Source of the DNA: a virus
Strand: one strand, 5' to 3'
IMG/VR virus record: IMGVR_UViG_3300037258_000216
Span: 1 to 42,904 of that record
Length of the DNA stretch: 42,904 nt
Positions 418-42,904 of the stretch are shown here, in pieces. The translations under genes were made by a program, and so were the position numbers. Under the pieces are notes generated by a model that was not told the origin of the DNA, searched no databases, and saw only the letters and a list, made by a program, of their open reading frames with translations. The stretch's first letter is position 1, and every line of letters starts with the position of its first letter.

Positions 418-458
418 GCTACTTAGGTAGGTGAAATTGGACGCACCTTTTCCTCATG

Positions 459-471
459 CACGCTGGCTCTG
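459..471 (+). repeat. 13-bp leader repeat, copy 1
   Basis: CACGCTGGCTCTG occurs here and at 3319-3331, in both cases in a non-coding stretch of the + strand unit. In copy 2 it lies upstream of a poly-G start; here it lies upstream of the tRNA-like RNA. It could be a processing or regulatory signal; its function is unknown. Confidence 0.5.
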
Positions 472-568
472 CATCCTAAGGGAAACCGGCATTAAGCCCT
501 GTGGTGTATAGAGTAGTCACGCCCGGTTTAGCGCGGGGAGGACGGTGCGATTCCGTAAGGGGCATTTT

Positions 569-689
569 GGTATGTAGGCGCAGTCGGTTCTGCGCAATTC
601 GGTTAGTGGCAGGTTAGGAATATCTCGAAGAGGCTAACTAATTAGGGCTAACGACACTCAAGGGACGTGGTTCGACTCCACAACATACC
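569..689 (+). ncRNA. tRNA-like RNA with an enlarged middle arm
   Basis: The sequence shows a perfect 7-bp acceptor stem (569-575 with 683-689), a canonical D-arm (578-581 with 592-595, loop 582-591 with A14 and the GG pair), and a T-arm (667-670 with 678-681, loop TTCGACT) with a C-A mismatch at its base. Total length is about 121 nt, against 73-95 for normal tRNAs. Between the D- and T-arms no 5+7+5 anticodon arm can be drawn. Instead there are nested stems: 602-606 with 648-652, 613-617 with 634-638, and 624-626 with 630-632 closed by GAA. It lies in a 309-base gap between two small genes. It could be a degraded tRNA, a tRNA with an insertion, or a tRNA mimic. A 3' CCA is not encoded (CAG follows). 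Confidence 0.6.
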
Positions 690-726
690 CAGTTAGGGAA
701 TACAAACAACGGAGATTATAGAAATC

Positions 727-1065
727 ATGATTGAAACAGATACAATAACATATACACCGCCGGATACCAGCGCGCAAACCGCAATGCCCGAATGGAATTG
801 GAGCGAATTTTGCTCTACAAAACCTACTAAGTTAGAAGAGGCGAGGCCCGCCGTTATTCATAACATCAACAAGCTGTTTGACTACGCACCTTATAATGAA
901 AGTCAAATCACGGCAAGCAGGATAGTGATAAATGCATTAAAGGGAGCGTTCCAAGCAATTCTGCTTAACTGCCCACCGTCATCTAATAGAACAACTGCAT
1001 TGCAGCACTTAATTGACGCACGTATGCGCGCCAATGCTGCAATTACTCATGGAGGTCGATTCTAA
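727..1065 (+). CDS. Putative Acb2/Tad1-like cyclic-nucleotide sponge
   Basis: Protein of 112 residues. The C-terminal half (about 60-112) is two predicted helices joined by a CPPSSNRTTAL turn and followed by LxxARMRANAAI. I know this pattern (NCP-S--RT-AL--L-EA-M-ANA-I) from small phage proteins classed in the Acb2/Tad1 hairpin family, which bind the signalling nucleotides of CBASS or Thoeris defence. The first 45 residues are an acidic, Trp-containing extension of unknown role. The start has GGAG 12 bases upstream. It lies directly after the tRNA-like RNA and 2 bases before the next gene. The family call is from memory of the motif, so treat the anti-defence role as inference. Confidence 0.5.
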   Translation: MIETDTITYTPPDTSAQTAMPEWNWSEFCSTKPTKLEEARPAVIHNINKLFDYAPYNESQITASRIVINALKGAFQAILLNCPPSSNRTTALQHLIDARMRANAAITHGGRF

Positions 1066-3782: not shown

Positions 3783-5848
3783 TGATTAGAAATCATCTTG
3801 ACTTTGAAACATTCGGGCGCGTCGATTTAACAAAAGTCGGCGCACCCCTTTACGCTAAACATCCTGATACGGGAATACATTGCGTTTCGTTTCACTGTCA
3901 AAATGCAGTTAAAAAACTATATAAAGGTAATCCCGAAAATTGGGGATTCGGTGAGCCTATTAGGAAAATAGGATTCGCTAATACTTTAGTAAAAATGGCA
4001 ACAGACCCCGAAATTATTTTTGTCGCACATGGTGCTATGTTTGAACAAAGTATTTGGCAGTATATTTTAGTTGAAGTGTTTGGTTATCCGCCTATCCCCA
4101 TAGAGAGGTGGCGTTGCACTATGGCTAAATGTTTGGCATGGGGATTGCCCGCTAGTTTAAAAGACGCAGCTAAGGTGCTGCAACTGCCGGCACAGAAAGA
4201 TATGGAAGGACGCGATACCATGTTGCGTTTAGCTAGACCACGTAAGAATGGCGACTTTTGGACACCTAAGGATAAGCCGATAGAGTTTCAACAACTGTAC
4301 AGCTATTGCGACCAAGATGTTGAGTGTGAAAGACAATTAGATATTGTACTGCCCGACTTAACACCCGATGAACAGGAAGTATGGTTCGCCGACCAGCATA
4401 TAAATCAACAAGGAATTTATCTCGATATACCTGCAGTACGCAAAGCAATGGAGTTTAACAAACAATATGACAAAGAACAGCAAAAGCGATTCGTTGCAAT
4501 TACAGGAGGCATACCAAGCGTTTCACGACAACGAACAAAAATACAACAATGGCTGCATAAGCAAGGCGTCATGGTTAGCAACACGCAACGCAGTACTCTA
4601 CAAGCTGAACTTTATAGCGAGCGTATTATATCGCCAGACGTGCGAACAGTTATGGAAGTGTGCATTTCTTCCGGCAGAACGTCGACCTCGAAATACGAGA
4701 AAATGATACAGCGTACCGATGAAGATAATTGCACAAGGGAATTGCTGCAATATCACGGTGCGCATACTGGCAGATGGAGCGGACGCGGAATACAAATTCA
4801 AAACTTGTTGCGCCCAACGGTTAACCCTAATGTAGCGCTTAAAGTGCTGCAGGAGTACGACTATGAGTTTTTTAAGTTCATGTACCCAGACGTTGCGGAT
4901 GCGCTTGCATCGTGCCTTAGACGAGTTATCGTTTCACCGCCTGGCTGTACGCTTATTGGTGCAGACTTTTCCCAGATTGAGGCGCGTGTATTGGCGTGGC
5001 TTGCCGGAGAATCCAAAGTGCTTGACGCTTTTAGAGCAGGTGAAGATTTATACTGTAAGCAGGCATCAACAATTTACGGCTTCTACGTCTCCGAAGACGA
5101 TAAGGAACGACGCGCACTCGGTAAGGTTGCTGTGCTTGCTCTTGGTTATCAGGGTGGTATCGGAGCTTTTGTTACTATGTCAAGGAATACAGGCGTCAGC
5201 ATTGCACCTGTGCATCGCGGCTTGTGGAGCATGGCTACCGACAGTGAGCGAGAAAAAGCCGAATACGCCTTGTCTGAGTATTACCGACGCACTCACAATC
5301 CTATACCCAGAGAAGTTGGACTTACCGCAGATTTAATCAAACAACGGTGGCGCAATGCAAACCCAAATATTGTTAATTACTGGCACCGAACTGAAGCCGC
5401 TGTTAAAGAAGTTATTTCTACCGGCAAAAGTCAAAGAGTTAATGATGTTGTTTGGCACCTGTATACGCGCCAACAAAGAACTTGGCTTGTATGTAGACTT
5501 CCCTCCGGGCGTCCCATGGTTTTTTATAATCCGCGAATTACCCATAACGGTGAAATCTCTTACGTATCACCCAAGTATGGAAGAACGACCACGTATGGCG
5601 GCGAGCTTGTTGAAAATATTGTCCAAGCAGTGGCGCGTGACGTTATGAAAGAAGCCATGTTTAGGGTGGCACCTATTGCAACCCTTTACTTTACTGTGCA
5701 TGATGAACTAATATGCTACGTAAGAACGTGCTACTACGATGAAGAGTACCAGCAATTGTTTGATACCTTAATAGCTAAGTCACCTACATTTGCACAGGAC
5801 TTACCTGTAGCTATGGAATCCTGGTCGGGGGTTATATACAGCAAATGA
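3782..5848 (+). CDS. DNA polymerase, family A, with 3'-5' exonuclease
   Basis: Protein of 688 residues with GTG start overlapping the previous stop (TAGTG). Exonuclease motifs are Exo I LDFETFG (residues 6-12), Exo II VAHGAMFEQ (about 82-90) and Exo III YCDQDVE (about 178-184). Polymerase motifs are A (ADFSQIEARVLAWL, about 399-412), B (helix with KVAVLALGYQGG, about 448-459) and C (VHDE, about 639-642). The length is typical of phage replicative Pol I-type enzymes. It would copy the genome together with the prim-pol, the VapE-type helicase and the DUF2815 protein. All catalytic residues I looked for are present. Confidence 0.95.
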   Translation: MIRNHLDFETFGRVDLTKVGAPLYAKHPDTGIHCVSFHCQNAVKKLYKGNPENWGFGEPIRKIGFANTLVKMATDPEIIFVAHGAMFEQSIWQYILVEVFGYPPIPIERWRCTMAKCLAWGLPASLKDAAKVLQLPAQKDMEGRDTMLRLARPRKNGDFWTPKDKPIEFQQLYSYCDQDVECERQLDIVLPDLTPDEQEVWFADQHINQQGIYLDIPAVRKAMEFNKQYDKEQQKRFVAITGGIPSVSRQRTKIQQWLHKQGVMVSNTQRSTLQAELYSERIISPDVRTVMEVCISSGRTSTSKYEKMIQRTDEDNCTRELLQYHGAHTGRWSGRGIQIQNLLRPTVNPNVALKVLQEYDYEFFKFMYPDVADALASCLRRVIVSPPGCTLIGADFSQIEARVLAWLAGESKVLDAFRAGEDLYCKQASTIYGFYVSEDDKERRALGKVAVLALGYQGGIGAFVTMSRNTGVSIAPVHRGLWSMATDSEREKAEYALSEYYRRTHNPIPREVGLTADLIKQRWRNANPNIVNYWHRTEAAVKEVISTGKSQRVNDVVWHLYTRQQRTWLVCRLPSGRPMVFYNPRITHNGEISYVSPKYGRTTTYGGELVENIVQAVARDVMKEAMFRVAPIATLYFTVHDELICYVRTCYYDEEYQQLFDTLIAKSPTFAQDLPVAMESWSGVIYSK

Positions 5849-10351: not shown

Positions 10352-10780
10352 TCAATCCTTCAATATAAACCAATCAGTAGCTAATATATCTGTTTGACTT
10401 GCTAACCAAGGACAGCACAAACCTTTAGGTGCATTAACATGCCCTGCTGGATATTCGATGTAAATGTAGGGCTCTGTCATTTTTGAATGTGCATCCGGTA
10501 CTTGCAGCTTCAGCCAAAAATCCTTACCGTTCCAATTTGTGCGCGCTATGCGTTTACCGTTTTGAAGTTCTTTAAGAGCTTTCCCAAAAGACATGAAATG
10601 TCCATTGTATTTTTCATCGCAAGTATGCCAATCGTCTACTACCATGCGTAATAATTCCCAAGCTCTAAGTATGGCTGGGGGTTGTACAAAAGAGTAAAGC
10701 GTTTTTTGAAACACTACCATTGCGGCTGACATTTCTTTTTTATAGAGAAGTTCACCACTAACTTTAATCGGTTCTTCCAT
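10352..10780 (-). CDS. Tad2-like (DUF2829) anti-Thoeris protein
   Basis: Protein of 142 residues. Residues about 63-142 match the DUF2829 domain very well: SFGKALKELQNGKRIARTNWNGK, then YIYIEYPAG, then WLASQTDILATDWFI. This family includes Tad2, which binds the cADPR-type signal of Thoeris defence and so blocks it. Residues 1-60 are an extra N-terminal part not seen in the short family members (about 80-90 residues), with a Trp-rich helix near 41-52. It lies among late genes, upstream of the holin. Confidence 0.85.
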   Translation of the reverse strand: MEEPIKVSGELLYKKEMSAAMVVFQKTLYSFVQPPAILRAWELLRMVVDDWHTCDEKYNGHFMSFGKALKELQNGKRIARTNWNGKDFWLKLQVPDAHSKMTEPYIYIEYPAGHVNAPKGLCCPWLASQTDILATDWFILKD

Positions 10781-37061: not shown

Positions 37062-37305
37062 ATGGTGGCAACGCGACCCTATGTATGAGTACGACAAGTA
37101 TTGTAGAGTACCTAACAAAATAGACGGTATTATCGAAGAGCTTTTGTTGGCTGCGGGTGCTATTGTGATAATTGTTGTAATGGCATTAGTATGGAAGGCA
37201 GTAGTTAGCATACCGCCTGAGTTTAAAGTTAAGACGCCGCCTAAAGCGGAAGCCTTACACTCAATGAGTCAATCCCCTTTAGGTAACTGGTACGCAAAAT
37301 GGTAG
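37051..37305 (+). CDS. Small membrane protein, one helix
   Basis: Protein of 84 residues. Residues about 32-51 form a transmembrane helix (LLLAAGAIVIIVVMALVWKA), flanked by an acidic N-terminal side and a basic, Pro-rich C-terminal side. Not recognised. It overlaps the Lar-like gene by 7 bases. Confidence 0.75.
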   Translation: MSNKWWQRDPMYEYDKYCRVPNKIDGIIEELLLAAGAIVIIVVMALVWKAVVSIPPEFKVKTPPKAEALHSMSQSPLGNWYAKW

Positions 37306-37625
37306 AAACAAGTGGTTTAAGAACGAAGAAAGAATTGCGGGAAAAGGCACAAAGTATTTTAGATTCAGGTCTAGGACGTCAGGACTTGATAGCCACTTGC
37401 TACAGTTTATTATTAGAGTTGATTAGTAGATTGCCGGATGACCCACTAGAAGCGTTATTGCCTTGTCCGTTTTGCGGAAGCTCGGCAAAACTTAGGAAGT
37501 TAGTTACTATTTCAGATATGTATGATGCCTGTTGCGAAAATAGGAATTGCGGCGTATCGGTAATGACTAAGGGCGGCAAATCTAAAGAACAAGTTATTGA
37601 GATTTGGAATACAAGGAAAAGTTAA
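37299..37625 (+). CDS. Lar-like restriction-alleviation zinc protein
   Basis: Protein of 108 residues. The second half has the pattern of the Lar family: LLPCPFCGSSAKL, then CCENRNCGVSV, then a final EQVIEIWNTR like the usual EAI-AWN-R. The four Cys make one zinc site. Lar proteins reduce cutting by type I restriction in some prophages; in other phages this domain occurs without a proven role. The first 50 residues are a helical extension not typical of Lar. Confidence 0.7.
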   Translation: MVETSGLRTKKELREKAQSILDSGLGRQDLIATCYSLLLELISRLPDDPLEALLPCPFCGSSAKLRKLVTISDMYDACCENRNCGVSVMTKGGKSKEQVIEIWNTRKS

Positions 37626-40634: not shown

Positions 40635-40855
40635 TGTACGACAAACCTAATCCGGGTCAACCTATGTACGTTAATTTAAAGAAACGGCATTTTGCACATC
40701 AAGGTAATTACAAAATGGCATGTTGCGATTGCAGTCTAGTTCACATAATGCGCTTTGAAATAGAAAAGAGTACAGGCAGATTGATAATTAGAGCATGGCG
40801 CGATAATCGCGCTACAGGTCAAATGAGACGTAAAAGAAAAAAGAAAAAAGGATAA
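40634..40855 (+). CDS. Small zinc-binding protein
   Basis: Protein of 73 residues from ATG 40634. A central MACCDCSLVHIM, a strand with STGRLIIRAWRDNRATG, and a very basic tail (RRKRKKKKG) form a pattern I know from tiny phage proteins next to replication genes. The Cys triplet and His suggest metal binding. Its stop overlaps the helicase start by one base. Confidence 0.75.
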   Translation: MYDKPNPGQPMYVNLKKRHFAHQGNYKMACCDCSLVHIMRFEIEKSTGRLIIRAWRDNRATGQMRRKRKKKKG

Positions 40856-42666
40856 TGACAAATCAGCTATTACCATTTCAACCGGCAGGGGTTGAATTTC
40901 TATTAGGTAAACTGCCTAAATCAAAAGCACCGCATCGTTTGCTTGCTGACGATATGGGGTTAGGTAAAACTATTCAAGTATGCGAAGCCATTCGCCGACT
41001 AAAAGAAAAGCACGTACAAGTTCCACTGTTGATTGTTTGTCCTCCCTTAATTAAAATGACGTGGAAACAAACACTAATCAATTGGAGTGGTATCAGTGCT
41101 AAAGATATTCAGATTATTACTTACGGCGCGCAGAAAGTTACAGGCTCCGTCGTTATCGTTAACTATGAACTGCTCCACAATAAAGCATTGCGCGTACAAC
41201 TTCTTAATCGTAAGTTTCTTGTGGGCGTATTTGATGAAGTTCACCGACTTAAAAGTTTGGATTCTAAAATCTCTGAAATCGTCTTAGGTAACACCGCGCA
41301 CTACAAACCCTTAATAGGACAGTGCTATTACAAATGGTGTTTGTCCGGCACATTCATACCTAATAGACCGGCTGAAGCTTATCTGCTACTCAAGACACTA
41401 GCACCTGAATGTATCGAGCCCTATTTAAGTTGGGACGCTTTTGCTAAATACTTTTGCGGGGGTTACTATGATGAATGTACCGGCAAGACTGTTGGTAAAG
41501 GCGGCAGCCATTTAGATGAACTAAAAGAGCGTATGGCTGGCTTTATGTTGCGCCGTACTGAAGATGAAGTAAATTTGCCGGATAAGCTAATCCAGCATGT
41601 TTATTGCCAAGTCAGTATGCCTCAGGTACAAAACCTGGCAAAAGAAATCTCAGTTATGAGCACCGAAAATACCCATTTGGCTACTTTACGTAAAGCGGTG
41701 GGAATTGCCAAGATTCCTTTTTGCATAGATTATCTGACTGATTGGCTTGAAAACCATCCAGAACAAAAGATAGTAGTGTTCGCTTACAGCCGGCAGGTAA
41801 TAGAGAGTATCGCCGATTCCGATAAACTAGCTAAATTCAATCCGGTATATGTTTACGGTGGCAGTTCGGCTAAAGACAAAGAATTTGCTTTGCGCTATTT
41901 TGCCGAAGACCCGGCTTGTCGTATGCTTGAACTGCAAATACTAAGTGGGGGTGAAGCTTTAGACGGGTTGCAGTATACGGCTAATAATGTGTTCTTTGCC
42001 GAACAAGAATGGTCGGCGGGAGTTTTCGACCAGGCATTAAAGCGCATACACAGGATAGGTCAGACTAAAGCCGTTCATGCGATGGTAGCAATAGCGCAGA
42101 ATGTGGATTTAGAAAATATCATCACTCAGACATACAAACGAAAAAAGAAGACTATACAAAAATTGCTAGACCCGTGCAATAATAAAACCGATATACTACA
42201 TACCCCTTCTATTAACAGAGGAAATCATATGACCATTGAAGACAAGTTAGACGCGATAATTCAATTGCTTGAAGTTATTGCTGCCAATACCCAAGTAGGC
42301 AGTCGTTCAACTGAAGCAGAAGATAGCGAGCCTGCACCAAAGCCTACGCGTGGACGCAAGCCGGCAGCAAAAAGCGAGGTTGAAAAACCCAGCTTAAAAA
42401 AATCGCAAAGCGCACCCCAGTTAGACGAAGAACAAGTGCGCGAAAAAATGTTAGAAGTGTACCAAGCACACGTCGAACAGTATCCGGGACCAAAAGCAAA
42501 GCTAGAAGCAAAAGCAGCCCTAAAAAGAATAGTAAAGCAAACGGGGTACGACAGCTTCGAGGAAATGGAACCAAGCGACTATCGGGAGTTCGTAAACGGA
42601 CTGGAACGGTTAAAAGGAACGTTCGTTCCCGACGCTGAGGAATCTGACGATTTAGAAGATATCTAA
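40855..42666 (+). CDS. SNF2/DEAD-type helicase fused to an acidic-tailed domain
   Basis: Protein of 603 residues. Helicase motifs: I LADDMGLGKTIQ (about 30-41), Ia LIVCPPLI, II DEVH, III LSGTFIPNR, V-like GGEALDGLQ, VI ALKRIHRIGQ. Residues 459-603 form a second part: a helix (DKLDAIIQLLEVIAAN), a Pro/Lys-rich linker, a helical domain with GYDSFEEMEPSDYREFV, and an acidic end DDLEDI. This second part has its own strong ribosome site and ATG (42229), so it is probably also made alone. The helicase may remodel forks or clear bound proteins. Confidence 0.9.
   Translation: MTNQLLPFQPAGVEFLLGKLPKSKAPHRLLADDMGLGKTIQVCEAIRRLKEKHVQVPLLIVCPPLIKMTWKQTLINWSGISAKDIQIITYGAQKVTGSVVIVNYELLHNKALRVQLLNRKFLVGVFDEVHRLKSLDSKISEIVLGNTAHYKPLIGQCYYKWCLSGTFIPNRPAEAYLLLKTLAPECIEPYLSWDAFAKYFCGGYYDECTGKTVGKGGSHLDELKERMAGFMLRRTEDEVNLPDKLIQHVYCQVSMPQVQNLAKEISVMSTENTHLATLRKAVGIAKIPFCIDYLTDWLENHPEQKIVVFAYSRQVIESIADSDKLAKFNPVYVYGGSSAKDKEFALRYFAEDPACRMLELQILSGGEALDGLQYTANNVFFAEQEWSAGVFDQALKRIHRIGQTKAVHAMVAIAQNVDLENIITQTYKRKKKTIQKLLDPCNNKTDILHTPSINRGNHMTIEDKLDAIIQLLEVIAANTQVGSRSTEAEDSEPAPKPTRGRKPAAKSEVEKPSLKKSQSAPQLDEEQVREKMLEVYQAHVEQYPGPKAKLEAKAALKRIVKQTGYDSFEEMEPSDYREFVNGLERLKGTFVPDAEESDDLEDI
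42229..42666 (+). CDS. Internal in-frame product of the helicase gene
   Basis: ATG 42229 is preceded by AGAGGAAA five bases away, in frame with the helicase. It would give 145 residues: helix MTIEDKLDAIIQLLEVIAAN, a basic linker, an HTH-like helical part and the acidic tail DDLEDI. Comparable stand-alone proteins occur in other phages, so this is either an older separate gene fused by loss of a stop or a deliberate second start. Confidence 0.55.
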   Translation: MTIEDKLDAIIQLLEVIAANTQVGSRSTEAEDSEPAPKPTRGRKPAAKSEVEKPSLKKSQSAPQLDEEQVREKMLEVYQAHVEQYPGPKAKLEAKAALKRIVKQTGYDSFEEMEPSDYREFVNGLERLKGTFVPDAEESDDLEDI

Positions 42667-42681
42667 ATCGTTGGTGCAAAG

Positions 42682-42904
42682 ACTGACATGTCGCATACTG
42701 TAAAAGGTAGGCGCGACCGATAAAAGACGCACAGCGGCAATACGTTATGTTGGGAAAACCGCCATCAACACTCAACCACTCTTAGGGGGGGGGGATTAAC
42801 AAATGTCATTTGATAGAGAACTGGCAACCCAAAAGGAAATAAAATACCTTGAAGAACAAGCCAAAGTAATTGAAAAGGCAAAAGCTGAAGCAGAAGAAAA
42901 AACT
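42682..42904. repeat. Terminal redundancy, right copy
   Basis: Repeats 1-222 with a single inserted G in the poly-G tract. It begins 15 bases after the stop codon of the helicase gene ending at 42666, so helicase, leader and first gene read as one + strand unit when the ends are joined. The unique genome length is then about 42,681 bp. Confidence 0.95.
42803..42904 (+). CDS. Second copy of first gene, cut by window end
   Basis: First 34 codons of the gene at 121-417, repeated in the right terminal copy and cut by the window end. Its leader has ten Gs (42785-42794) instead of nine. It is not an extra gene if the genome is circular. Confidence 0.9.
   Translation, partial: MSFDRELATQKEIKYLEEQAKVIEKAKAEAEEKT

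Follow-up and report, generated by a model that had tools for sequence, protein, structure and literature searches.

The role of phage-encoded tRNAs has been debated for decades. Some of them compensate for tRNA loss (PMC11555353), while some with anticodon-loop variants escape tRNA-cutting defences (PMC10264068). T4 rnaC, a small phage RNA, ends in a tRNA-like T-arm (PMC9697503). The open-licence literature yielded no description of a phage tRNA-like RNA without an anticodon, which is weak evidence that none has been published; in reports on KVP40, phi-pp2 and Aeh1, such genes appear merely as low-score or pseudo tRNAs (PMC3468402, PMC1524935).

The window analysed here is the whole 42,904-nt sequence of the IMG/VR record IMGVR_UViG_3300037258_000216, a podovirus. 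Its first approximately 225 bases recur at 42680-42904, indicating a circular contig that looks complete, and it encodes a head-tail connector, major head protein, terminase, DNA polymerase, primase/helicase and DUF2800 exonuclease. The window has no close relative among phage-collection records, and a DNA similarity search with 400-740 gave no match to phage records. The nearest relatives, with 63-67% portal identity, came from portal searches of IMG/VR; none came up when viral contigs were searched with the exonuclease alone or with the neighbouring 112-residue protein alone. Close to the start of the window lies an RNA with the following parts:

569-690, plus strand: tRNA-like RNA, 121 nt plus discriminator C at 690; CCA not encoded
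569-575, plus strand: 5' strand of the acceptor stem, GGTATGT, pairing with 683-689
578-595, plus strand: D-arm GCGC-AGTCGGTTCT-GCGC, with canonical A14/G15 and G18G19
596-665, plus strand: 70-nt region replacing the anticodon arm
602-607/647-652, 612-617/638-643 and 623-626/630-633, plus strand: insert stems predicted by RNAfold, the innermost with a GAA loop
666-682, plus strand: T-arm CGTGG-TTCGACT-CCACA, 4/5 pairs
683-689, plus strand: 3' strand of the acceptor stem, ACATACC, 7/7 Watson-Crick pairs

A tRNA-like body is indeed present at 569-689. The 7/7 acceptor stem, the D-arm with its GG pair and the TTCGACT T-loop of the original prediction are all in place, the D-loop is the canonical AGTCGGTT, and the T-stem has 4 of 5 pairs because of a C-A mismatch. 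The minimum free energy (MFE) fold from RNAfold includes the acceptor stem, D-arm and T-arm (z = -1.68 for the whole element). A strict scan demanding an acceptor stem, a canonical D-arm and a T-arm returned exactly one element in the 42.9-kb window; 60 dinucleotide shuffles, scanned on both strands, gave none. The body is that of a canonical tRNA, with its 7-bp acceptor, a GG-bearing D-arm and a T-arm matching TTCRANN, but the decoding part is not: where a 5-bp stem would carry a 7-nt anticodon loop with U33, the spacer between D- and T-arm measures 70 nt, matching the approximately 70 bases predicted. Since the anticodon loop is absent, the element could not read codons. Neither ARAGORN nor Rfam, both among the tools proposed for checking the prediction, reports the element, even for RF00005 at E<=10, and the RF00005 gathering threshold is not reached. 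Model R1, built for the family of structured-insert tRNAs described below, gives 27.9 bits with filters off, a score that ordinary tRNAs reach as well. No promoter or terminator above chance was found for the element.

The insert is less convincing than the body around it. Two nested stems built from two GTTAG and two CTAAC copies had been proposed, and regarded as unexpected in a simple decayed tRNA. The four copies are where they were described, but the inner stem, drawn as 613-617/634-638, is 612-617/638-643 (GGTTAG/CTAATT) in the MFE fold; the innermost hairpin is C-GAA-G. On its own the insert is no more stable than its shuffles, with a fold of -11.6 kcal/mol against an equal shuffle mean (p=0.47). 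Of 2000 shuffled inserts, 120 (6%) also contain nested perfect 5-bp stems, so that the nested-hairpin half of the observation is weak. Excision of the insert yields no canonical anticodon arm above chance: there is no perfect solution, and the best loose one is no better than those from shuffles. An archaeal-type or anticodon-loop intron was likewise rejected, with ARAGORN intron solutions as common in shuffled inserts (68-69 of 300, 23%). As no excision restores a canonical anticodon arm beyond chance, the element does not resemble an intron-containing tRNA, and the earlier idea of a tRNA with an inserted element, if that means a removable intron, gains no support.

We searched the relatives with the structured-insert family model and found a tRNA-like RNA in IMGVR_UViG_3300027545_000002 (G008, on L120). 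Exonuclease alignment then located L252 (G025) and L253 (G026), which are identical over this stretch, leaving two distinct relatives:

L120:8552-8621: tRNA-like RNA of G008, 70 nt, between the helicase-associated gene and the exonuclease
L253:3733-3808: tRNA-like RNA of L253, 75 nt, with arm CCC-GAAA-GGG

The G008 RNA passes the RF00005 threshold (34.3 bits versus a cut-off of 29), and its anticodon arm is CCCA-GAAA-TGGG, without an anticodon loop. ARAGORN calls the L253 RNA tRNA-Ser(CGA), a call that we rejected because the loop would put C at position 33 and there is no long variable arm; its cloverleaf folds at -18.4 kcal/mol with the tetraloop versus -6.6 with a 7-nt loop (11.8 better). 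Hence both distinct relatives cap the anticodon arm with a GAAA tetraloop rather than a 7-nt anticodon loop. The tetraloop is identical in the two, the hairpin differs by 1 inserted pair, and the D and T stems have changed on both sides; this comparison is the firmer one, since their leaders and first RNA bases are nearly identical. The window RNA occupies the same slot, from the helicase-associated gene to the DUF2800 exonuclease, but does not have the GAAA tetraloop. In the window, 40855-42666 is one 603-aa frame, a fusion of the helicase and the following gene of approximately 150 aa, which are separate in G008 and L253. The 603-aa protein is 43-44% identical to the relatives' helicase and 33-36% to the helicase neighbour, and the exonucleases are 36% identical. 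Exonuclease alignment against genome contigs gave 4 loci, and the strict scan finds a tRNA-like body in none of them. Another DUF2800 phage contig carries a 111-nt tRNA-Leu-like RNA with an extended middle (L278:6481-6591; 33 bits with R1).

Upstream of the RNA, the stretch 421-564 holds three further features:

421-452, plus strand: possible leader, ACTTAGG and hairpin GGTG...CACC followed by TTTTCC, by inspection and folding
459-490, plus strand: hairpin GCTGG...CCGGC starting with CACGCTGGCTCTG, a 13-mer common to L253
496-564, plus strand: possible second, degenerate tRNA-like stretch with T-arm ACGG-TGCGATT-CCGT (T-arm 4.5 bits in R1; alone not significant)

A highly conserved leader, ACTTAGGGCGAGGGGT...ACCCCTTCCATTT, lies directly 5' of the relatives' tRNA-like RNA (L120:8500-8551 and L253:3680-3732), and 421-455 is its possible counterpart in the window. 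The resemblance of 421-452 to the relatives' leader (ACTTAGGGCGAGGGGT...GACG...ACCCCTTCC) is a resemblance only, yet comparison with the relatives suggests that 421-480 is a leader hairpin. We had considered 421-480 as a tRNA-Leu remnant with D-arm GGTGAAATTGGACGCACC, an idea dropped when a pattern scan returned 4 non-tRNA matches, approximately the number expected by chance. The 13-base CACGCTGGCTCTG recurs in L253 at 3861-3873, within hairpin GCTGG...CCAGC; window and L253 share a 12-mer by chance in 4 of 1000 shuffles. A second tRNA at 496-564 appears solely with relaxed ARAGORN settings and is not claimed, given that these settings report many other sites too.

Three distinct sequences, namely the window element and the G008 and L253 RNAs, make up the whole comparison set for the body. 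Jointly, 45 of 48 base-pair cells are paired (93.8%) and 11 of 16 pairs have changed on both sides; none of 500 shuffles reaches any measure, and slid controls are 35-51% paired. For the covariation in related phages that had been proposed as a check, the body stems thus give a compensatory pattern; the insert gives no structural signal above chance. This compensatory pattern comes from three sequences, a count that cannot tell compensatory evolution from independently gained intact bodies, since the two strands of each tRNA stem match in any case; had each phage acquired its body separately, the paired acceptors would differ without any compensation, simply as parts of intact tRNA bodies. Outside the T-loop, the window RNA is not similar in sequence to either of the others, and it stands after the shared GCTGG hairpin while the relatives' RNA stands before it. 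For these two reasons the window RNA may not derive from the relatives' RNA.

Inserts in the anticodon arm also occur in other phages. When IMG/VR was scanned for D- and T-arms separated by 62-92 nt, a single genuine match emerged, the 116-nt RNA of Aeromonas phage LAh_8; most matches were due to chance or spanned neighbouring tRNAs, with a full acceptor in L185 only. From the LAh_8 RNA we traced a family by blastn and motif scan (alignment A2, model R1), with members in KVP40 ('tRNA-Pseudo-3/4/5'), nt-1, PX29 ('tRNA-Leu'), Aeh1 ('tRNA-Val'), phiAS5, Ah1, APT65, D479, K566, Synechococcus phage BUCT-ZZ01, a 735-kb uncultured phage and IMG/VR contigs. The class spans T4-like, Lahexavirus, Aquaneticvirus, cyanophage and huge-phage genomes at 109-126 nt (L221, L222, L225-L234, L185, L243), and is currently annotated as pseudo-tRNA, tRNA-OTHER or an arbitrary amino acid. 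The 31 aligned members have an invariant C-N-G-C-A and a covarying insert hairpin in the anticodon arm, and 22 of 23 consensus pairs show changes on both sides. In 13 of the 31 (0.19 expected by chance), an arm with all 5 stem pairs and a 7-nt loop carrying U33 is regained when the insert is excised within the 5' side of the anticodon stem, in most cases behind nt 28 or 29; the structured insert is possibly a new short tRNA intron. The window element has no CNGCA core and lacks the combination of C-N-G-C-A with a hairpin bearing a GNNA-like loop, its insert pairs are broken in the R1 model alignment, and no excision restores its arm. It was therefore kept out of this class.

Several observations concern these other phages in their own right. 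Gene 57B, annotated as RNA ligase (in phage 1.081.O as RNA ligase/cyclic nucleotide phosphodiesterase), lies just upstream of the structured-insert tRNA arrays in nt-1 and KVP40 (L222:332-787, L225:2440-2895) and is a candidate processing enzyme for structured-insert tRNAs. In related Vibrio phages, apparently corresponding members keep the stem CGATC/GATCG with anticodon loops AGG, TAG, TCT and TCA (L222:1459-1577, L222:1855-1974, L233:3059-3175, L233:3433-3552, L234:3039-3156), an odd arrangement for decoding tRNAs. Aeromonas T4-like phages have a second odd type of 116-117 nt, in which one acceptor stem encloses two T-arms (L221:2227-2343, L226:2235-2350, L227:2233-2348, L228:2233-2349).

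Two counter-defence genes of the window are a Tad2-like gene at 10352-10780 on the minus strand (PF11195, 3e-21) and a Lar restriction-alleviation-like gene at 37299-37625 on the plus strand (PF14354, 4e-10). The gene adjacent to the tRNA-like RNA is the following:

727-1065, plus strand: 112-aa protein with a weak match to the Acb2/Tad1 hairpin domain PF24729, under the curated cut-off; also PHROG 1454

The Acb2/Tad1 label stays weak, since this protein matches nothing in NCBIfam and nothing credibly in the PDB.

That two related viruses have a comparable RNA in the same slot makes a non-decoding tRNA mimic, rather than junk, possible. We tentatively favour, at somewhat less than an even chance, the reading that the window element is a non-decoding tRNA-like RNA in a slot shared within a podovirus clade, which would be processed and act as a tRNA-body decoy. 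In the clade this slot is occupied by such an RNA, with the arm a short GAAA hairpin in two relatives and a 70-nt extension in the window. The element keeps the acceptor stem, D-arm and T-arm elbow, the parts through which a tRNA is recognised by processing enzymes and tRNA-binding proteins. We infer that the RNA is transcribed, then trimmed by RNase P and 3' processing and completed by CCA addition, after which it would occupy a host factor that binds the tRNA body. The function we prefer is that of a decoy, directed at a host factor that binds or cuts tRNA. An anticodon-less decoy would be effective solely on factors that read the tRNA body and not the anticodon loop, for example a nuclease or modifying enzyme that reads the elbow or acceptor end. 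The Tad2-like and Lar-like genes, together with the weak Acb2/Tad1 hairpin match beside the RNA, would suit a counter-defence role. The tRNA mimic that had been suggested for this locus gains partial support from the compensatory stem changes and the syntenic relatives with GAAA-capped arms. More doubtful is a broader proposal, in which a phage RNA family kept the body and lost the anticodon under selection, leaving the arm free to vary between GAAA and a long extension, and serves as decoys against tRNA-targeting defences.

Phage tRNA genes often decay, which counts against the reading as a non-decoding tRNA-like RNA. The element could be a decayed tRNA gene whose anticodon arm was broken by insertion or duplication and whose function is gone, a possibility to which we give substantial weight, though well below even, and which, for the window element taken alone, is nearly as likely as a non-decoding RNA. 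An insert that folds like shuffled sequence, with nested stems at a chance frequency of 6%, speaks for decay; the C-A mismatch in the T-stem, the missing CCA and the lack of similar sequence in public phage records point the same way. Against this, the 7/7 acceptor and the D-arm are intact, both distinct syntenic relatives keep the body and a common GAAA tetraloop without an anticodon loop, and the D and T stems of these relatives have changed on both sides.

Membership of the structured-insert class, as a divergent or degenerated form with its core replaced, is improbable. Size (121 versus 109-126 nt) and insert position agree, and RNAs of that class are also found in small tandem arrays; however, the core motif is missing, the 27.9-bit R1 score is what the body alone gives ordinary tRNAs, and the nearest phage relatives have short tetraloop forms, not the core insert. 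We think it less probable still that removal of the insert yields a working tRNA, as it might in the C-N-G-C-A-core phage tRNAs. Such a class does exist, and excision restores 13 of its 31 members against 0.19 expected, but here the core is absent, the hairpin pairs are broken, and loose excisions and ARAGORN solutions stay at shuffle level. That the element is left over from a host tRNA gene, as an attachment site or through recombination, is the least probable of these readings, and a very improbable one: tRNA fragments often serve phages as attP sites, but both tRNA halves are present and paired, and no integrase was found among the window proteins scanned with Pfam or PHROGs (some small ORFs lay outside the scan).

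If the preferred reading of a non-decoding tRNA-like RNA kept in several phages is true, it would separate the 'decoy' from the 'replacement tRNA' role in a directly testable way, and would reveal a class of phage RNAs that tRNA gene finders discard as pseudogenes. Structured inserts with covariation, as found in the tRNA-like genes of many phages, also suggest that gene finders drop RNAs. Among known systems, tmRNA is likewise a tRNA-like RNA without an anticodon, but the window element is far shorter, has no tag reading frame and gives no match in the tmRNA mode of ARAGORN. T4 rnaC and rnaD (species 1 and 2 stable RNAs) are small phage RNAs beside tRNA genes; in contrast to the window element, no 7-bp acceptor or canonical D-arm was seen in them, and we found no sequence relation. 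With the 'pseudo-tRNAs' of KVP40, nt-1, PX29, Aeh1, LAh_8 and BUCT-ZZ01 (109-126 nt, sometimes arrayed) the element has an anticodon-arm insert in common, whereas their shared covarying hairpin with C-N-G-C-A, and the canonical arm that they often regain on excision, are both absent from it. Finally, the phage tRNAs that escape defences or compensate for tRNA loss decode and have a normal 7-nt anticodon loop, which the window RNA lacks, but like them it has a phage-encoded tRNA body, with counter-defence genes in the same genome.
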